DNA of 64,000 nucleotides from Deltaproteobacteria bacterium (GCA_025363655.1 JANYDK010000014.1:1-64000); one strand, 5' to 3'; shown: positions 14,272 through 59,204, counted from the stretch's first letter. The notes: generated by a model not told the origin, from the sequence alone. Translations and numbers: made by a program.

Positions 14272-14453
14272 GGCGCACCTCGTAGCCTCGATGCCGTCCG
14301 TCGGCCAGACGCCACCGACACGCCCTTGCCTGCATCCATCTGTCGTCTCCCTCCCGCGGCTCCCGCGAGAGTAGGGCTGCGTCACCGACTTCGCGGAGCG
14401 CTGCCCGCGCCGAGCCTTGGTCGAAGGGCCATTTCTTGCTAATTGGAAGCGCC

Positions 14454-15449
14454 GTGGAAGCGACGAACGAACAGGCCCTGCCGCCGACCCTTTGGCAGCG
14501 CTACAAAGCCTCGCTCAAGCCGCTCGCGGTCGAAGAGCCGATCGACGTCGCCTGGCACCGTCTCCTTGCCTACGGCTTCGCGCGCGCCGCGTATCCGACG
14601 CCGATTTCCGCCGATGCCATCACCGTCGCGGCCATTTTCGTCGGCGCTGCCAGCGGCGTCTGTCTCGCCTGGCCCTTCCAGCATCACCTCCTCGTCGGCG
14701 CCGCGCTCTGCACCTTCTCCGCGGTGCTCGACTGCGCCGACGGTCAGCTCGCGCGCTTGCGTAAGAAGAGCTCGAGCTTCGGTCGCATGCTCGACGGCGT
14801 CTCCGACACGCTGGTGATGGCGGCGATCGTCATCGGCGCCGTCATCCATCTCTTGCAGAAGGGCGAGCCGTGGTGGTTCTGGCCCTTCGCCGCCGCCACC
14901 GCGCCGACGTGCACTTTCCACTTCGGCCACTACGACCACTACAAGAATCTCTATCTGCGCCTGACCGAGCCGACCTACCGCGAAGGCGAAGATCTCGAGA
15001 CCGCCCTCGAACGCAAGAAACAATCGCTCGCCGAGAAGCCGCCGGGCCTCGTCATGGGCTTCGTCTGGTGGCTCTACATCTACTACGTCACCAGCCAGAC
15101 CAACTACATCCGCGTGACCGATCCGTACACCTCTGGGCGCCTCGCGCTCATGCCCGCGTACGATGCGAAACAGGCCGAGATTTACCGCAGACACTGCCTC
15201 GGGCCGATGCGCATGTGGCGCACCTTCTTCGGGCTCGGCACGCACGTCTTCGTCTTCTCGATCCTCGCCGCGCTCGACCTCTTCGAGTGGTACGTCGTCT
15301 TCCGCTTCGGCGTGCTCAACGTCCTCAACTATGCGTTCGCTCTGCCGTGGCAGAGGCGCGCGTCGAAGGCCGCCTTCGAAGAGCTCGGCCTTCGCCTCCC
15401 CGACCAGCGCGGTTGGGATCGCAGCGAGAATTCCGCCGCGACGACGTGA
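14454..15449 (+). CDS. CDP-alcohol phosphatidyltransferase family protein
   Basis: A 331-residue membrane enzyme with the full CDP-alcohol transferase signature: D93, D96, G97, A100, R101, G110, D114 and D118 (motif D-x2-DG-x2-AR-x8-G-x3-D-x3-D). About six hydrophobic helices surround it. Such enzymes swap CMP of a CDP-activated alcohol for another alcohol, making phospholipids or phosphodiesters. It is followed 63 bases later by a nucleotidyltransferase and then an IPCT-like fusion, both likely suppliers of the CDP-linked substrate. The GTG at 14454 is preferred; a TTG at 14436 is an alternative. The substrates cannot be read from sequence. Confidence 0.85.
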   Translation: MEATNEQALPPTLWQRYKASLKPLAVEEPIDVAWHRLLAYGFARAAYPTPISADAITVAAIFVGAASGVCLAWPFQHHLLVGAALCTFSAVLDCADGQLARLRKKSSSFGRMLDGVSDTLVMAAIVIGAVIHLLQKGEPWWFWPFAAATAPTCTFHFGHYDHYKNLYLRLTEPTYREGEDLETALERKKQSLAEKPPGLVMGFVWWLYIYYVTSQTNYIRVTDPYTSGRLALMPAYDAKQAEIYRRHCLGPMRMWRTFFGLGTHVFVFSILAALDLFEWYVVFRFGVLNVLNYAFALPWQRRASKAAFEELGLRLPDQRGWDRSENSAATT

Positions 15450-15512
15450 CGCTCTCGCGCGAGAGGCCGGTCGCTTGTCGGCAAGGCCGCGCCCACCTAT
15501 CAGAGCGTCGTC

Positions 15513-16292
15513 ATGCGCGCATGCATCCTCGCCGCCGGCATCGGCCAACGACTCCGTCCGCTCACCGACGACAAGCCGAAGGCGCTCGTCGAGGTCGCGG
15601 GAATGAGCTTCCTCGATCGCTTGGTCACCCAGCTCGTGGCGGTCGGCGTCACCGAGCTCGTCGTCGCGACGGGCTTTCGTGAAGACGCGGTCGTGGCCGC
15701 TCTCGCCCGTTGCCCAATTCCATGGCTCGTCCGCCGCAACGACGCGTACGACAAGACGCAGAACAGCGTCTCCCTCCACGCATGCGCGGACGCACTCCTC
15801 GCAGGCGGCGCGCAAGACACCTTCAAGCTCGACGGCGACGTCGTCCTCGACATCGAGGCGCTGCGACGCCTCATCGAAAAGCTGCGTGAATCCCAGTGCG
15901 ATCTCGTGGCAGCCGTCGACGCACGGGACGATCTCGGCGCCGAAGAGATGAAGGTCACGCTCGAGGGTGGGCTCGCGAGTGGCAGCGATCGCATCAGCGC
16001 GTTCGGCAAGCACCTCGATCCGCGCACGAGCGTCGGCGAGTCGATCGGCGTCGAGTTGATCGCGGCGAAGGCACTGTCGCCATTTGTCGACGCACTGGGC
16101 GCGCTCGTCACGTCGGGGACGACGAATCTCTACTACGAGGATGTCTATGATCGATTGCTCCCAGGTCGTGGCGCCGCACGGACACTCGATACGCGCGCGG
16201 TGATGGTCGGCGATCTCCCATGGACGGAGGTCGACACCGCCGCCGACCTCGCTCGCGCGGCAACGATCGCCCTGAAAACCCGTCTTTCTTGA
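15513..16292 (+). CDS. Nucleotidyltransferase, phosphocholine/phospho-alcohol cytidylyltransferase-like
   Basis: A 259-residue Rossmann-like NTP transferase. The signature LAAGIGQRLRPLTDDKPKALV occupies residues 6-26. Next come FLDRLVTQL and QNSVSLHACADAL, then the Mg-binding FKLDGDVVLD. The QNSVSL feature resembles LicC-type phosphocholine cytidylyltransferases and related enzymes. It would join a CMP to a phospho-alcohol. Together with the CDP-alcohol transferase upstream and the fused enzyme downstream it suggests one pathway with two nucleotidyltransfer steps. The actual alcohol is unknown. Confidence 0.8.
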   Translation: MRACILAAGIGQRLRPLTDDKPKALVEVAGMSFLDRLVTQLVAVGVTELVVATGFREDAVVAALARCPIPWLVRRNDAYDKTQNSVSLHACADALLAGGAQDTFKLDGDVVLDIEALRRLIEKLRESQCDLVAAVDARDDLGAEEMKVTLEGGLASGSDRISAFGKHLDPRTSVGESIGVELIAAKALSPFVDALGALVTSGTTNLYYEDVYDRLLPGRGAARTLDTRAVMVGDLPWTEVDTAADLARAATIALKTRLS

Positions 16293-16677
16293 GTTGTTTT
16301 CGAGAGCCAGCCGCAGCCGTCAGTGACATGTCGATGAAGTCGTTCCGCGCGAACACACCTTCGCGGAAACAACCGATTCGGACTTGGCCTTGCGGTTGCA
16401 GTGTTGGGAAGGCAGCTCCGTCGAACCGCCTGGAAACAGTCCGTTTCGTCGTGGGTTGTGTAGTGAAGACCGTGACCGAGTCGCTCGACGCCGCATCTCT
16501 GCCGCATACCCAAGTGCGGGAATGACGGCGTGTGCGGCCTAGGCACAGATGTGGCGAGACGACGTCAGGTTGATGACCCCGTGAAAAATTCGTGGCTTTT
16601 CGTTGCCGTTTCGTCGCGGACCGTGATACCCGGTGCCCGCGATCCCGGCTTCGTAGAGGCTTGCGAGGAGCTTGATC
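16293..16677. other. Long intergenic region, possible leader of the fusion gene
   Basis: This 385-base stretch between two same-strand pathway genes holds no convincing open frame. GC content is lower than in the genes. A purine-rich GAGGAGC at about 16664-16670 lies just before the ATG at 16678 and fits a ribosome binding site. No known riboswitch class was recognised by eye, but the length is unusual inside this gene-dense stretch. Confidence 0.4.
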
Positions 16678-18654
16678 ATGTCTGAGGGAACTTCCCGTAC
16701 TTCGAGCAACGGCGTGACGCTGACCGCCGTGCCGCCGACGCGAGGCCGCAAGGCCCGCGAGGTCAAGCGCGCGATCATCCTCGCGGCTGGACGTGGCACC
16801 CGCCTCGTCTCGCAGGAAGAGTTTCCCAAGCCGCTCAAGCCGGTCTCGGGTGTTCCGCTGCTCGTCCGCATCCTCCGCACCCTCCAGTCCGAAGGCATCA
16901 CCGAGGCGGTCGTCATCGTCGGCTTCCGCGGCGAGCAAATTCGCAAGGCGCTCCTCGCCGAGCCGAGCCTCGCGCTCAAGCTCACGTTCGTCGAGAACGA
17001 GAATTACGACAAGGCCAACGGCGTCTCGCTCCTCGCCGCCAAAGACTACGTCGACCAAGACTGCATCCTCTCGATGGCCGACCACCTCTATGCGCCCGAG
17101 CTCGTGCGCCGCCTCCGCGAGGCCGACCTCAAGGGCGCTTGCGCTCTCGCCGTCGACTACGACATCGAGCGCTGCTTCGACATCGACGACGCCACCAAGG
17201 TCAAGCTCGTCGGCAACAAGATCGTCAACATCGGCAAGGAAATCGAGAGCTACGACGCCATCGACACCGGCGTCTTCCGCATCGGCCCGGCCCTCATCGG
17301 CGAGCTCGAGAAGCTCTACGTCGCGCGCGGCGATGCCTCGCTCTCCGACGGCGTGCGTGCACTTTGTGCGAGCGGCCAGTTCGTGACCGTCGACGGCGGC
17401 GACGCTCGTTGGATCGACGTCGACACGCCCGAGGCCTACGCCCGCGCCGAGGCGATGATTCGCGTCTTCGGCGACCAGCTCGGCGACGACCCGACCGCCG
17501 CGGCGAGCATCGATCCCGAGTCGATGGAGCAGTTCGCGCCCACCTGGGTGCGTGCCGCCCAGCCCTATAAAGAAGACCACTTCGAGCTCGCCGCAGGTCG
17601 CACCGGCCTCGCGCGCTTGATGTCGAACGAGTCGCCGTTCGCCCCGAGCGAGCGCGTCCTCGCGGCCATCGTCGAAGCGGCCCGCGCCGGCAACACCTAC
17701 CCCTCGAGCGCCAAGCAATTGCGCGAGAAGCTCGGAGCCCGTGAAGGCGTCGCTGCCGATGGCGTCGTCCTCGGCGCCGGCAGCACCGAAATCATCGACC
17801 TCATCGTGCGCACCTTCGTCTCGCCCGGCGAAGAGGTGCTCATCAGCGTGCCGACGTTCTCGATGTACGAGGCTCGCACGCGCGTCGTCGGCGGCATCCC
17901 GGTGCTCGTCCCGATGACGGACACCTACGACTTCGACATCGCCGGCATCCTTCGCGGCGTCACCGAGCGGACGAAGGTCGTCTTCCTCTGCACGCCGAAC
18001 AACCCCACCGGCAATCGCATCGACGAGGTGTCGCTCCGTCGCATCCTCCGCCTCGGCCTCCCGACGGTGATCGACGAGGCGTACCACGAGCTCGGCGACG
18101 GCGCGCCTTCGCTCGCGCGCATCATCGAAGAGTTCCCCAACGCCATCGTCATCCGCACCTTCAGCAAGGCGTTCGGGCTCGCGGGGATGCGCCTCGGGTA
18201 CTCGCTCTCGCACCCGTCGGTCGCCAAGCTCCTCAGCCGCGTGAAAATCCCCTGGAACGTCTCGACGTTGACGCTCGCTGCCGCCATGGCCGCGCTCGAC
18301 GACGTCGCCGATCAAGAGGCGCGCGTGCGCGAGCTCCGTGCGGGCCGTGCGTACCTCGAGCGCGAGCTCGCCCGCATCACCGGCGTCGCCGTCCTCCCGT
18401 CCGAGGGCAACTTCGTCCTCTGCGACATCCACGAGACGGGCATGTCGAGCGACGCCATCGTCCAGGCGATGCTCGTCGAAGGCGTCTTCATCCGCTCGCT
18501 CAGCGTGCACCACATGGATCGCGGCTACGTCCGCGTGACGGTGGGTACCGCCGAGCAGAACGTGAAGTGCGTCCAGCAGCTCCGTCGCGTGCTCGCAGGC
18601 GCGGCTCGTCGTCCGTCAGCCGCCCTCCGCGCCGTCGCCTCCGACGCCGAGTGA
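16678..18654 (+). CDS. Fusion of inositol-phosphate-type cytidylyltransferase and HisC-like aminotransferase
   Basis: A 658-residue two-domain protein. Residues 33-265 are a nucleotidyltransferase: ILAAGRGTRL, EEFPKPLKP, NANG-like YDKANGVSLL, the metal motif SMADHLY (D135), DIDDATKVKLVG, IVNIGKEI and YDAIDTGVF. This set matches CTP:inositol-1-phosphate cytidylyltransferases. Residues 305-640 are a fold-type I aminotransferase close to HisC: LGAGSTEIIDL, TPNNPTGN (440-446), VIDEAYHE (464-471), PLP lysine K497 in TFSKAFGLAGMRLGY, and a C-terminal RVTVGTAEQN. The fusion suggests making an amino-alcohol phosphate and activating it with CTP in one protein. ATG 16678 follows a good ribosome site; the TTG at 16672 is less likely. 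Confidence 0.85.
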   Translation: MSEGTSRTSSNGVTLTAVPPTRGRKAREVKRAIILAAGRGTRLVSQEEFPKPLKPVSGVPLLVRILRTLQSEGITEAVVIVGFRGEQIRKALLAEPSLALKLTFVENENYDKANGVSLLAAKDYVDQDCILSMADHLYAPELVRRLREADLKGACALAVDYDIERCFDIDDATKVKLVGNKIVNIGKEIESYDAIDTGVFRIGPALIGELEKLYVARGDASLSDGVRALCASGQFVTVDGGDARWIDVDTPEAYARAEAMIRVFGDQLGDDPTAAASIDPESMEQFAPTWVRAAQPYKEDHFELAAGRTGLARLMSNESPFAPSERVLAAIVEAARAGNTYPSSAKQLREKLGAREGVAADGVVLGAGSTEIIDLIVRTFVSPGEEVLISVPTFSMYEARTRVVGGIPVLVPMTDTYDFDIAGILRGVTERTKVVFLCTPNNPTGNRIDEVSLRRILRLGLPTVIDEAYHELGDGAPSLARIIEEFPNAIVIRTFSKAFGLAGMRLGYSLSHPSVAKLLSRVKIPWNVSTLTLAAAMAALDDVADQEARVRELRAGRAYLERELARITGVAVLPSEGNFVLCDIHETGMSSDAIVQAMLVEGVFIRSLSVHHMDRGYVRVTVGTAEQNVKCVQQLRRVLAGAARRPSAALRAVASDAE

Positions 18655-18659
18655 CGACG

Positions 18660-18801
18660 CTCGTTTCGCCGAAGATTGCTGCGCAACTTCGGCCGTCCGG
18701 TCGATCTCGCTTCGCTCGGTCGCCGGACTGTCTCGTTTCGCCGAAGATTGCTGCGCAACTTCGGCCGTCCGGTCGATCTCGCTTCGCTCGGTCGCCGGAC
18801 T
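18660..18801. repeat. Two tandem copies of a 72-bp palindromic unit
   Basis: Unit 1 (18660-18731) and unit 2 (18732-18801) are identical apart from the last two or three bases. Each unit contains two palindromes: an arm CCGAAG...CTTCGG, and a longer arm GTCCGG...CCGGAC with an internal CGA/TCG extension. The pair sits exactly between the ends of two convergent genes, a position typical of REP-like elements or duplicated terminators. Confidence 0.85.
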
Positions 18802-19816
18802 ACAGCGGCAGCGCGTCCGGATCGACCTCGATCGGTCGACCGGCGTGTGCTGCGATCAATTTGCGAAAATCGGCGGGAATCGGGTCGCTGAAGCGCAGCC
18901 GTTCACCCGAGATGGGATGACTGAAGCCGAGCACGATGGCGTGCAGCATCAGGCGCGGCGCATCGAGCAGCGGAAGGTTCGCGCGTAGACGATCGCGCGT
19001 GTAGACGCGATCGCCGACGATGGGCATCCGCGCCTCCGACATGTGGATGCGAATCTGGTGCGTGCGACCGGTCTCGAGGCGGCAGACGATCAACGTCGAC
19101 GGGTTCTCGCCGGTCGCGAGCGGCATGACCGGCGCCACGTGGGTGATCGAGAGCTGACCGGCGGCCTTGCCGACCGACTCGTCCTTCGCCGAACCACGTA
19201 AATTGTCGCCGCGATCTTGCATCAAGTACGAGCGATAGGTGCGCTTGCTGGTGAGCTCGCCGTGGCAGACGGCGACGTAACGCCGTTCGATGTCGTGCGT
19301 GCGGAAGGCCGCGGTGAGCAGCTTCTTCGCCGCGAGCGTCCGCGCGAAGACGACGAGGCCGCTCGTCTCCTTGTCGATGCGATGGACGACGCCGAGCGAG
19401 GCGTGCGGCTGTTGGCGAGCGTTGGCGACGAGCCAGCGCTGCAGGCGATCTTCGAGGTGGACCGTCTCGCTGTCGTCGTACGGGACCGTGGAAATTCCAG
19501 CTGGCTTGCGCACGACGACGAGGTGCGAATCACAGTGGGCGATGGCCGAGTCGTCGAGGGTGCCGCGCGGGTGCGACTCCACGCGACGCGCTGTCGGACG
19601 AACTTCGAGACGCGCATCGACCCGGACGCGCGTGCGACCGTCCTGTACGCGCACGCCGTCGAGCGACACCTTGCCGCGCTCGATGAGCGCGCGTGCATCA
19701 CCCCAGCTGACGCCCAACAGGGCGCGAAGCACGCCGTCGATCGGACGCCCGGCCTCTTCGGCGGTGACGACGTGGTTGACGTCGGCCGTCGGCTTCGGCG
19801 CATTCTCTTTGGTCAC
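18800..19816 (-). CDS. RluA/RluD-family pseudouridine synthase
   Basis: A 338-residue enzyme that isomerises uridines in RNA, usually in 23S rRNA. An N-terminal S4 domain (GRPIDGVLRALLGVSWGDARALIERGKVSLDG, about residues 22-55) precedes the catalytic domain with the signature HRIDKETSGLVVFA, whose Asp is the nucleophile. LETGRTHQIRIHM and the closing GERLRFSDPIPADF are typical. The target uridine cannot be stated. The stop lies at the edge of the 72-bp tandem repeats. Confidence 0.88.
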   Translation of the reverse strand: MTKENAPKPTADVNHVVTAEEAGRPIDGVLRALLGVSWGDARALIERGKVSLDGVRVQDGRTRVRVDARLEVRPTARRVESHPRGTLDDSAIAHCDSHLVVVRKPAGISTVPYDDSETVHLEDRLQRWLVANARQQPHASLGVVHRIDKETSGLVVFARTLAAKKLLTAAFRTHDIERRYVAVCHGELTSKRTYRSYLMQDRGDNLRGSAKDESVGKAAGQLSITHVAPVMPLATGENPSTLIVCRLETGRTHQIRIHMSEARMPIVGDRVYTRDRLRANLPLLDAPRLMLHAIVLGFSHPISGERLRFSDPIPADFRKLIAAHAGRPIEVDPDALPL

Positions 19817-28720: not shown

Positions 28721-29998
28721 CTAAGCGATCGGCAACACGGCGCCGGCGCTGGGAATTACCGCCCAGCGTCGCACCGTGCCCGCGCGCGCGACGGCATCGT
28801 CGAGCGACGTGCACTTCTCCCACCCGAGACGCTCGCAGGTGGCCACGTCGAGATCGGTGACTGCGAGCGTGCGCGTCTGGGCGGCCTTGTCGCGCGCAGC
28901 GAGCGACGTCTGTCCGACGATCTCGTAGCGTCGGCGTAGCTCTTGGTAATGCACTTCGCGCGTCGCGTGCTCGAGCCAGGCGGCGAAACGCGGGTGCCCT
29001 AGCCCCTCGTCGCAGCGCGCGAGGAGCACGAGCGGCGGCCGATGCTGCAGCGTCTCGGCGGTGAACGCGCGGAAGGCGTTGTCGTAGGCCTTGTGCGCTT
29101 GGTAGAGCGCCGCGTCGTAGGGCCAGCCGCCCGCGGAGGCGATGACGCCATCGAAAGGCATCGTCGGATCGAGCTTCACGGCGTTGCGAACGACGAGCTC
29201 TTCACAGCCCGCGCGGAACGTTCGCTCGACGTCGGCGCCGGCGAACATCTCGACGATGCCGGCGCTGCCGACGATGGCGTTGGCGAGAAATGAGCTGCCG
29301 CGATTGTCGTCGAGCAGCCGGGCGGCGGCGAACATCTCTTCGCTCACCGGGTTGCCCTCGAGTCGCGCCGGACCGCATCCCGCAGCGCGGCCGGCCGGCC
29401 CGTTTTCGTCGAGCACGCGCAGGTGATTGCGGACGATCGAGGCCTCGTCGGCGACGCCCGGAAGCACGGCTTTTCGGCCACCGGAGAAGCCCGCGTAGTA
29501 GTGAAAACCGATCGCGCCGACGAGGACGCGGAGCTCGGCGTCGACGACCTCGCGCGCGAGCGACACCGGAGCACCCGCGGCGACCTCACCAATCGTCGCG
29601 AGGCCGGCAGGCGTGCGCGCGTCGTGGTGGACGAGGTGCGCGCACGAGAGGATGGCGTCGCCGTAGATGGCTTTGCTCGTCTCGTCGCTCTGACGCGCGT
29701 GGAGACCATAAGCGACGACGAGCTCGACCCGTCGCGAGGCCCGCGGAGGAAGTCGTGCAAGGAGCGAGGCGATGGCGTCGAGGGTCACGCGCATGCCGCC
29801 CTTGCGCGTCTGATCGTTGACCACCAGCGTGATGCGCTCTCTCTTCGCCAAGGCGTCGAGGAGCCCGGCCGACTCGAGCCGCCCTTCGACTGCGGCCGCG
29901 TCGAGCACCGCGCCACTGGATTTGGCGCTGATTTCCTCGGCGTCGAGCGGCTGCGAGAGCTCGAGTCGATCGCGTCCGTAGGCGAGGGAGAGCGTCAC
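28721..29998 (-). CDS. LarA-like nickel-dependent racemase/epimerase
   Basis: A 425-residue protein of the LarA superfamily, which uses a nickel-pincer nucleotide to racemise or epimerise 2-hydroxyacids. Seen: VNDQTRKG (DHTR-type site), VAYGLHARQSDE, the LVHHDA region, and FHYYAGFSGGRKAVLPGVADEASI with the lysine that tethers the cofactor. The first D-x-T-R site has Gln for His. No larB, larC or larE cofactor genes are in the window. The GTG at 29998 is preferred; the frame extends to 30022. It lies 48 bases after cysK. Substrate unknown. Confidence 0.8.
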   Translation of the reverse strand: MTLSLAYGRDRLELSQPLDAEEISAKSSGAVLDAAAVEGRLESAGLLDALAKRERITLVVNDQTRKGGMRVTLDAIASLLARLPPRASRRVELVVAYGLHARQSDETSKAIYGDAILSCAHLVHHDARTPAGLATIGEVAAGAPVSLAREVVDAELRVLVGAIGFHYYAGFSGGRKAVLPGVADEASIVRNHLRVLDENGPAGRAAGCGPARLEGNPVSEEMFAAARLLDDNRGSSFLANAIVGSAGIVEMFAGADVERTFRAGCEELVVRNAVKLDPTMPFDGVIASAGGWPYDAALYQAHKAYDNAFRAFTAETLQHRPPLVLLARCDEGLGHPRFAAWLEHATREVHYQELRRRYEIVGQTSLAARDKAAQTRTLAVTDLDVATCERLGWEKCTSLDDAVARAGTVRRWAVIPSAGAVLPIA

Positions 29999-30046
29999 GA
30001 GGGCGATATAGCGCACGCACACGCGGGCGTGCCACCCCGAGCGCGA

Positions 30047-57353: not shown

Positions 57354-57425
57354 GGCCCCATCGTCTAGCGGTTAGGACATCGGCCTCTCACGCCGGTAAC
57401 ACGGGTTCAATTCCCGTTGGGGTCA
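57354..57425 (+). tRNA. tRNA-Glu (CTC anticodon), integration target
   Basis: Acceptor stem GGCCCCA (57354-57360) pairs with TGGGGTC (57418-57424); discriminator A at 57425 and no encoded CCA. The anticodon stem has a T-G pair and loop CTCTCAC, giving CTC for GAG codons. The T arm is ACGGG, TTCAATT, CCCGT. The 3' half is overlapped by the integrase gene end on the other strand. Confidence 0.95.
57388..57425. other. Putative left attachment site of an integrated element
   Basis: The integrase gene ends inside the tRNA-Glu 3' half, reading the tRNA as ...VTPTGIEPVLPA. Integrases often use a tRNA 3' end as attB, and the element then carries a copy of that end that restores the tRNA. The exact crossover core cannot be set without the second copy, which I did not find in the window. 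Confidence 0.6.
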
Positions 57426-58719
57426 CGAACGAAAGCCCTGGATTCCAAGTGGATCCAGGGCTTTCGACTTTTTGAAAAGCCGAAACTCGTGGCAGAACCC
57501 GGACCAGCACCTCGGGAGGCAGTCGCGGGAACGGAGGCGTGCGGAAGGCGCCGACGCCGAGGTTACGACCGGCCGAGATATAGGCCTGCGTCATCTTGAA
57601 GTCGGTGTGCCCGCCCCGGAACTGGATGCGGATCGGGTCGTCGCCGCGGACCGCCATCCACGTGAGGCACGTGTCGCGGAGCCCGTGGAAGCGGAGCGGC
57701 AGGCGCATCGCGTCGTCCTCCACGTGGAGCGCCTCGCGCATGACCTTCGCCGTCATCAGGTCCTTCCGTAGCAACTCGGCGCGGTCCTCGCCGGGAGGCA
57801 GCTTGAGGAGGCGCGCGGACGCGACCTCGGTGCCCTCGTCGTCGGTGACCTTGCCCAGCGCCCTCGCCTTCGCCTCCGCGATGAGGACGCGGAGGAGCGG
57901 GAGCAATGCCTTCTCGACGTCGAAGGAGCGCGCGCGCTTCGTCTTCGTCGCGCGGTCGCCGCCGGTCTCGCGATCCACCTGGCGGGCGATCGTCAGTCGC
58001 TCGTGCGCGAGGTCGACGTCGGCGACAGTGAGCGCAGCAAGCTCGCCCGCACGGGCACCCGTGTAGAGGGCAACCGCGTAGGCCCGACGCCGGTAGAGTG
58101 GCACCGCCTCGCACGACAGCAACGCAAGCGCCTCGTCGGCGTAGAGGATGGGCTTGTCCTTGTCGACGCCGCCATCGGGGCCTGCGACGTCGCGGGTGGG
58201 GTCGTCCAGCCGGACGCGGAGGGAGAGGTCCTTCGACTTGTGCGCGGCGCCGAACGCGCTCGTGACCTCGCCCCAGACGTTGTCGGCGGTCTTCCAACTG
58301 ATCTCCCCGCGCTCGACGGAGGCGTCGAGGTGCCGGACGACGCGCTCCAGGTCGTCGCGCTTCACCATGCGGATCTCCGTCGGCCCGAGGATGGGAAGAA
58401 CCCACTTGCTCACCCTGCCCCGCGCGTCCTTCACCGAGGTCTGCCCCTTGGCGGCGCGGGCGTTGAAGTAGCGGACCCACCAGTCCGCGCAGCTCTCGGA
58501 CTTCGGCACCTCGACGGCGTCGATCCCCTCGACCCCGCGGAGCTTGATCGCGCGCGCCATCTCCGCGGCTTTCGCGCGAGCCTGCTCCTCGGTGTACCAG
58601 GCGGGGAGCGGGACGACCTTCCGCACGCCGTCGGGGAGCGTGAGGCGGACCTTCCACTGCCCGCCCTGGAAGAAGACCGAGCCCGTCGACGGGCGCCCGC
58701 CTTTGTTCTTCGTCGTCAT
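57388..58719 (-). CDS. Tyrosine site-specific recombinase (phage-type integrase)
   Basis: A 443-residue integrase. An N-terminal arm-binding region (RPSTGSVFFQGGQWKVRLTL) and core-binding helices precede the catalytic domain with R223 (LYTGARAGEL), H345-x2-R348 (FHGLRDTC), H371 (GGHTD) and the nucleophile Y380 (TQAYI). It starts at ATG 58719, overlapping the upstream stop by four bases. Its last 60 or so residues read through the tRNA terminator and into tRNA-Glu. It integrates or excises the element to its right, with the tRNA gene as target. Confidence 0.93.
   Translation of the reverse strand: MTTKNKGGRPSTGSVFFQGGQWKVRLTLPDGVRKVVPLPAWYTEEQARAKAAEMARAIKLRGVEGIDAVEVPKSESCADWWVRYFNARAAKGQTSVKDARGRVSKWVLPILGPTEIRMVKRDDLERVVRHLDASVERGEISWKTADNVWGEVTSAFGAAHKSKDLSLRVRLDDPTRDVAGPDGGVDKDKPILYADEALALLSCEAVPLYRRRAYAVALYTGARAGELAALTVADVDLAHERLTIARQVDRETGGDRATKTKRARSFDVEKALLPLLRVLIAEAKARALGKVTDDEGTEVASARLLKLPPGEDRAELLRKDLMTAKVMREALHVEDDAMRLPLRFHGLRDTCLTWMAVRGDDPIRIQFRGGHTDFKMTQAYISAGRNLGVGAFRTPPFPRLPPEVLVRVLPRVSAFQKVESPGSTWNPGLSFVTPTGIEPVLPA
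57430..57473 (+). terminator. Intrinsic terminator after tRNA-Glu
   Basis: A perfect 14-bp stem (57430-57443 with 57453-57466), a 9-base loop, then ACTTTTT. It ends tRNA transcription and, read on the minus strand, lies inside the integrase coding sequence. Confidence 0.9.
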
Positions 58720-59204
58720 CGCGTGCCTTCCTTCCCTGAGTCTTCGATTAGCCTCTCGACCTCGGGGCCGGTCAGGGAGAGCAGACTTTCCAATGACCTC
58801 GACACGGCGTTGATTGCCTTCCATCTCGACCTCACCTCGGCACGCGTCCGCTCGCGCATCTCGTCCGCGTCGGCAAGTCTTTTGAACCGCGTGAGAATGG
58901 CCGCCGCTTGCTCGTTGTCGCTGTTGTCGGACCTCATCGGCGGAAGGGGTACGCCGGCGAGTTGCGCGAGGTGCTCCTCGGCAACGCGCCCAGCGTAGAG
59001 ATTTACGACGCGCTCGGCTGACTCGTCCCAGCCAGCGTCGTCAGCAAGCTTCGTCGTGAACATCGTCGCGCCGTGGCCCTGTTCGGCTTGTCGGTTGATG
59101 GGCGAACGCACGCACGTGAACTCGACTTCGAGGCCGCTGCCGATGCCAACGACCGCGTGAGCCGCCTCGTGAAAGCACGTGAAGGTTCGTAGGGAGACCG
59201 TCAT
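58716..59204 (-). CDS. Small HEAAH zinc-peptidase-like protein
   Basis: A 162-residue protein with the zinc motif H12-E13-A-A-H16 (FTCFHEAAHAVVGIG) as in FtsH/M41-type proteases, without an AAA domain. A downstream acidic stretch (WDESAERVVNLYAGRVAEEHLA) resembles the M41 third-ligand helix. Such single-domain proteins occur on phages and mobile elements. Start ATG 59204 overlaps the previous stop; the longer upstream frame is not protein-like. Target unknown. Confidence 0.72.
   Translation of the reverse strand: MTVSLRTFTCFHEAAHAVVGIGSGLEVEFTCVRSPINRQAEQGHGATMFTTKLADDAGWDESAERVVNLYAGRVAEEHLAQLAGVPLPPMRSDNSDNEQAAAILTRFKRLADADEMRERTRAEVRSRWKAINAVSRSLESLLSLTGPEVERLIEDSGKEGTR

Follow-up and report, generated by a model that had tools for sequence, protein, structure and literature searches.

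A candidate two-headgroup CDP-alcohol module in Polyangiales that joins an inositol-phosphate cytidylyltransferase-like domain to a HisC-like domain

Genes and domains at the locus

We analysed a stretch of 64,000 nucleotides from a deltaproteobacterial genome (GCA_025363655.1, JANYDK010000014.1:1-64000; hereafter the window), in which three consecutive genes encode a cytidine diphosphate (CDP)-alcohol phosphotransferase (CDP-OH), a nucleotidyltransferase (NTase) resembling LicC and PntC, and a fusion of an IPCT-like domain, i.e., of the CTP:inositol-1-phosphate cytidylyltransferase type, with a HisC-like domain dependent on pyridoxal phosphate (PLP) (Table 1). The window corresponds to contig C55 of a genome of 9.0 Mb in 150 contigs (G000). 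An earlier reading, made from the DNA alone (the sequence-only reading), had recognised these plus-strand genes, and the domains assigned by Pfam and NCBIfam bear it out: Pfam matches are CDP-OH_P_transf (1e-14) in the first protein, NTP_transf_3 (2e-16) in the second, and both NTP_transf_3 (3e-14) and Aminotran_1_2 (2e-51) in the fusion. The start codons that it gave are plausible for all three genes. The NTase and fusion genes are 385 bases apart, which calls for caution in assuming a single transcript.

Table 1. Genes and domains of the locus, in coordinates of the window
Feature	Position	Strand	Remarks
CDP-alcohol phosphotransferase	14436..15449	+	337 aa from upstream TTG; 331 aa from GTG at 14454
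LicC/PntC-like nucleotidyltransferase (NTase)	15513..16292	+	259 aa; candidate CTP:phospho-amino-alcohol cytidylyltransferase
IPCT-HisC fusion	16672..18654	+	660 aa from upstream TTG at 16672; 658 aa from ATG at 16678
Fusion N half, CTP:inositol-1-phosphate cytidylyltransferase-like domain	16762..17487	+	residues 31-272
Fusion C half, HisC-like PLP domain	17518..18600	+	about residues 283-643; K499 codon 18166-18168

Conservation of the gene set

Our main sample comprised 145 genomes of the order Polyangiales (myxobacteria) and a wider one 379 genomes across the phylum, many of them fragmented metagenome-assembled genomes. Both halves of the fusion lie in a single open frame in 36 of the 145 genomes (35 besides G000), and two others carry pieces of it at contig ends, for a total of 38 fusion genomes. 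The fusion is not a product of chance, because in more than 30 other genomes its frame is open and its identity is 56-76% over the full length. It is spread over three families of Polyangiales, and none was found outside the order: all matches at 1e-100 among the 379 genomes fall within it. A peptide-pattern scan of 84,980 species, which sees close relatives only, found fusions solely in records labelled Polyangiaceae, Myxococcales or delta proteobacteria. Such are the labels of the related loci, and so we place the host in Polyangiales.

The three genes tend to stay together in relatives, a point that the sequence-only reading had made decisive for its proposal: where the fusion was present with enough flank to be inspected, all three lie within a few kb of each other at 24 of 28 loci. 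Their order varies, with the CDP-alcohol phosphotransferase first at some loci and last at others, and so do the flanks; this speaks for selection on the gene set rather than for inherited synteny. At the remaining four loci, the NTase and the phosphotransferase lie away from the fusion, and three of these genomes have the two as neighbours at another site. The NTase itself is present in 35 of the 38 fusion genomes vs. 2 of the 107 others (Fisher p ~1e-27, a descriptive value uncorrected for kinship), and among the three fusion genomes that lack it are two with fragmented or incomplete sequences.

Other neighbours recur, such as HEAT-repeat and GATase1-like proteins, and they gave no functional clue. 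A protein with HEAT repeats, about 820-860 aa long, is found beside the trio (e.g., L128:12118-14583), with one sequence cluster spanning 18 loci, and also near a stand-alone IPCT gene (L118:4133-6721); the window's own flank is without it.

The fused IPCT domain

Several observations point to the substrate of the N half. First, it matches the NCBIfam IPCT/DIPPS model at 5e-40, and its nearest solved relatives are all IPCT (2xme from Archaeoglobus at 6e-26, 4mnd at 3e-25 and 4jd0 at 6e-16, with the next match at 3e-9). Second, other families of the order, as well as genomes of 13 Mb, have stand-alone IPCT relatives with 41-64% identity, and most of the genes examined are divergent to an adjoining gene of about 437 aa, which encodes myo-inositol-phosphate synthase (MIPS). 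Third, the comparison of 36 fused with 14 stand-alone domains revealed 52 residues invariant in both sets and only 2 fixed differences, which is good evidence that fusion left the substrate unchanged. Fourth, in most Polyangiaceae and in several f6 genomes the fusion has MIPS within a few kb, the identity of one trio-linked copy having been confirmed by Pfam. Since its conserved residues match those of the stand-alone versions encoded beside MIPS, and since MIPS adjoins the fusion in most genomes, the N half very probably uses inositol phosphate, and its most likely product, as far as homology can tell, is CDP-inositol. G000 encodes a single MIPS, and no canonical phosphatidylinositol (PI)-phosphate synthase was found in it, the best matches (37-41 bits) being CDP-alcohol phosphotransferases of the present family; CDP-inositol thus looks like its main inositol route.

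Some genomes have two MIPS genes, of which one is near an IPCT gene, while a CDP-alcohol phosphotransferase resembling PI-phosphate synthase adjoins the second (G098:C1:2383338 and 2385063; G131:C1:11370538 and 11372260; G064:C64). These separate contexts suggest two separate inositol routes.

The separate nucleotidyltransferase

The NTase had been called LicC-like, a label that suits it: in a profile of 32 homologues LicC is the best match at 92.7 bits, followed by PntC at 90.8 and then by IPCT at 77. D107 and E209, invariant in the 32 sequences, align with D105/D192 of LicC and E104/E196 of PntC. In PntC, Glu104 and Glu196 are placed to contact the amine of 2-aminoethylphosphonate, and the equivalents in LicC are Asp105 and Asp192 (PMC6697681). 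The first of these two positions is Met in the Archaeoglobus IPCT and in the fused domain, and Cys in the Thermotoga IPCT. Judging from these residues, the separate NTase probably handles a phosphate that bears an amine, and it would be a better candidate than the fused IPCT half for charging an amino-alcohol phosphate. The presence of two nucleotidyltransferases may be explained in this way: one would act on inositol phosphate and the other on the amino-alcohol phosphate made by the HisC-like half, a division of roles that we propose because the NTase keeps both amine-contact acids and occurs almost only with the fusion.

The HisC-like domain

The C half scores 297.6 bits against the NCBIfam hisC model (cut-off 276.55) and 197.7 against the CobD model, under the curated cut-off of 290.55, so that identity with CobD is not supported. 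Its PLP lysine is invariant: the sequence-only reading had given it as K497 of a 658-residue protein, which is correct when counted from the ATG and corresponds to K499 from the TTG. The catalytic positions of the HisC PLP and substrate site, which we take to be Y20, Y55, N157, D184, Y187, K214, R222, R322 and R335 in E. coli, are also invariant in up to 37 sequences of the C half. Six residues (W292, E301, H303, R402, W528 and H613) are fixed in the fusion clade alone and, judging from the alignment, may line the substrate pocket. An AlphaFold2 model of the fusion has a pLDDT of 89.3 and a pTM of 0.65, the latter making the orientation of the two domains unreliable; the fold of the C half is best matched by HisC (Z 44.8) and almost as well by CobD (Z 40).

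In the phylogenetic tree, the C-half sequences group in a clade of their own (support 1.0, stem 0.73), the deeper placement of which has a low support of 0.28. The other HisC-like gene of G000, on contig C52, groups with other HisC, apart from this clade, and at least one other HisC-type gene is present in all fusion genomes tested. We therefore rejected the idea that the fusion is the only HisC of G000. A transaminase seems somewhat likelier than a decarboxylase. G131, a 97% complete single-contig genome, yielded nothing from the HisC family at 1e-45, as against one to three matches in the other genomes tested.

The CDP-alcohol phosphotransferase

The signature of the CDP-alcohol phosphotransferase, D99-x2-D102-G-x2-A-R...G116-x3-D120-x3-D124, follows the general form D-x2-D-G-x2-A-R-x8-G-x3-D-x3-D. 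It is invariant in 23 sequences and has the full set of Asp residues with which the enzyme had been credited. The AlphaFold2 model (pLDDT 92.8) predicts a helical membrane enzyme, with AF2299 (Z 19.1) and IPCT-DIPPS (Z 16.8) as the nearest solved folds; AF2299, DIPPS, PIPS and choline phosphotransferase all match, which leaves the donor undecided. The enzymes of the trio form one clade in the tree (0.95), and those of genomes with a stand-alone IPCT form another (0.995). G000 has a second homologue, on contig C95 (L187:6580-7539), which falls in the latter clade and adjoins genes for a glycosyltransferase and a PMT-like membrane protein.

A possible pathway with two activated headgroups

The reading that we favour, to which we give a probability of about one half, is that the trio is part of a headgroup module of the Kennedy (CDP-alcohol) type with two activated headgroups. 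Inositol-1-phosphate would come from MIPS, whose gene lies elsewhere in G000, and would be converted to CDP-inositol by the N half of the fusion. The C half would transaminate a small keto-alcohol phosphate, the best guess being the conversion of dihydroxyacetone phosphate (DHAP) to serinol phosphate. DHAP shares an acetol-phosphate core with the natural substrate of HisC, and it is favoured only for this reason, which makes serinol phosphate a tentative choice of product. The separate NTase would charge the amino-alcohol phosphate with cytidine monophosphate (CMP), and the membrane phosphotransferase would move one or both phospho-alcohols to a lipid (diacylglycerol or ceramide). From the domains, their conservation and co-occurrence, and the intact catalytic sites, as read in the sequences, we infer the substrates, the direction of the steps, the lipid acceptor, and a role of the fusion in coordinating the two branches. 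The order of steps in the sequence-only reading, transamination followed by charging with CMP and transfer, is thereby kept in part: an IPCT and a HisC-like domain are indeed joined beside a CDP-alcohol phosphotransferase, but the fused IPCT half probably does not charge the product of the aminotransferase, because it matches stand-alone enzymes encoded beside MIPS.

A number of points weigh against this two-headgroup module. First, the likeness of the NTase to LicC and PntC is only 91-93 bits, by profile. Second, the co-occurrence of NTase and fusion is inflated by shared ancestry. Third, MIPS is unlinked to the fusion in the window's own family, and in G000 it lies on contig C28. Fourth, the clade of the trio phosphotransferase differs from the one associated with stand-alone IPCT; it may thus not be the inositol transferase, and could act in the amino branch, in both, or on some other acceptor. 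Fifth, many Polyangiaceae have only one CDP-alcohol phosphotransferase of the extended family, so that either it uses two donors or one of the donors serves another enzyme. The role of the phosphotransferase is the weakest link of the model. Finally, the fusion of IPCT to a transaminase, instead of to its own partner, lacks an explanation.

Alternative explanations

The main rival is phosphoserine decarboxylation. The C half would decarboxylate phosphoserine (or phosphothreonine) to ethanolamine phosphate, which the NTase would convert to CDP-ethanolamine for use by the phosphotransferase, with the IPCT half making CDP-inositol in parallel. The acidic amine site of the NTase suits ethanolamine phosphate equally well, and HisC-fold decarboxylases exist, among them CobD, which matches the model at the Z given above. 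In Campylobacter, Cj1436 decarboxylates phosphoserine and is found beside Cj1437, the transaminase that makes serinol phosphate from DHAP (PMC11800397). Two arguments nevertheless render this rival unlikely: the HisC model gives the C half 298 bits vs. 198 from the CobD model (cut-off 290), and phosphatidylserine decarboxylase is already present in 54 of 58 genomes, G000 included, providing phosphatidylethanolamine without need of such a route. For the latter reason we set aside the variant in which the trio is a replacement route to phosphatidylethanolamine. A literature search on systems combining phosphoserine decarboxylase and CDP-ethanolamine in bacteria returned nothing useful.

A linear amino-cyclitol route would give the two halves of the fusion consecutive steps, as domain fusions often do: the C half would transaminate an inositol phosphate in oxidised form, and the amino-inositol phosphate so made would be charged by the fused IPCT half. 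The proximity of the fusion to MIPS in many genomes fits well with this. Yet no dehydrogenase recurs beside the trio among the neighbours scanned (non-exhaustively), the IPCT half shows no shift in specificity from the stand-alone enzymes, the separate NTase is left without a role, and inosose transaminases, as far as known, come from a different PLP family. We regard this route as distinctly unlikely.

A version along the lines of the sequence-only reading has a single headgroup: the C half would transaminate it, the N half charge it and the phosphotransferase transfer it, and the second NTase would make an unrelated nucleotide-activated compound. By analogy, PntC, which forms one protein with its transaminase, speaks in favour of this version. 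The version is nonetheless improbable, because closest relatives, conserved residues and MIPS neighbourhood make the N half an IPCT with Met at the amine-contact position, and the amine signature lies in the NTase instead. Least probable of all is an ordinary histidinol-phosphate aminotransferase fused to IPCT by chance: the C half is the only protein of G000 above the NCBIfam hisC cut-off and its catalytic residues all match those of E. coli HisC, but every fusion genome tested has another HisC-type gene and the C half is a long-stemmed clade of its own with fixed substitutions.

Relation to known systems

The two-headgroup module has partial counterparts. In Bacteroidetes, a cluster of MIPS, an NTP transferase and a CDP-alcohol phosphotransferase has been proposed, without proof, to be a route to CDP-inositol and inositol lipids (PMC9246714). 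The Polyangiales genes share with this cluster of Bacteroides vulgatus and Prevotella the combination of MIPS, a cytidylyltransferase-like protein and a CDP-alcohol transferase, and the Kennedy-type logic. They differ by the HisC-like domain and the second nucleotidyltransferase, not described there. That cluster also has a HAD hydrolase, and none was seen here among the flanking genes scanned, non-exhaustively. IPCT is also part of a bifunctional protein in IPCT-DIPPS of Archaeoglobus fulgidus (4MND), the DIPPS half of which our phosphotransferase resembles, but there it is fused to the CDP-alcohol phosphotransferase, which here is separate, the fusion partner being a PLP enzyme. The PntC-AEPT protein of Treponema denticola (Tde1415, 6PD1) is likewise a fusion of cytidylyltransferase and transaminase, and the separate NTase is PntC-like; however, it joins a class V transaminase to a PntC domain rather than a HisC-type domain to IPCT, and we saw no link to phosphonates at the locus. 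LicC (CTP:phosphocholine cytidylyltransferase, 1JYK) is comparable to the NTase, which keeps both amine-contact acids in kind. Cj1436 and Cj1437, which act in capsule synthesis of Campylobacter jejuni, are comparable by description: they are PLP enzymes for ethanolamine phosphate or serinol phosphate, whose product is amidated onto glucuronate without activation by cytidine triphosphate (CTP). CpgD of Caulobacter, a CTP:phosphoglycerate cytidylyltransferase 24% identical to the Thermotoga IPCT, makes CDP-glycerate for a sphingolipid headgroup (PMC12275187). It is an IPCT-related enzyme feeding a lipid headgroup, as we propose for the fusion, but its product is CDP-glycerate and it lacks a fused transaminase.

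The sequence-only reading had found the association of IPCT with a HisC-like domain beside a CDP-alcohol phosphotransferase unfamiliar, and had allowed that it might turn out to be a common pair of the histidine or phosphonate pathways. No such pair matches, and the additional HisC genes and separate C-half clade agree with this. The trio would mean a headgroup chemistry that is not yet described. Few bacteria have inositol lipids, and the trio offers a compact, testable version of the CDP-inositol route in Polyangiales, for which natural controls are at hand in relatives with the inositol part alone and in those with the added amino part. If the NTase and the HisC-like half do make and charge an amino alcohol, a new phospholipid headgroup would come to light, and the HisC fold would have gained a further role. 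More speculatively, the bifunctional protein might co-regulate or combine phosphoinositol with new amino-alcohol headgroups, such as phosphoserinol, possibly with both on one lipid; we hold this to be doubtful.

Other features of the window

A direct repeat of ~72 bases lies at 18567-18920, between the fusion and a pseudouridine synthase gene, and the repeated peptide within it belongs to a probably spurious open reading frame. Further along, the minus strand encodes a lactate racemase-like (LarA) protein (28721-30022; Lar_N, 4e-40) and a phage-integrase family protein (57388-58824), which may signal a mobile element close to the window's end.

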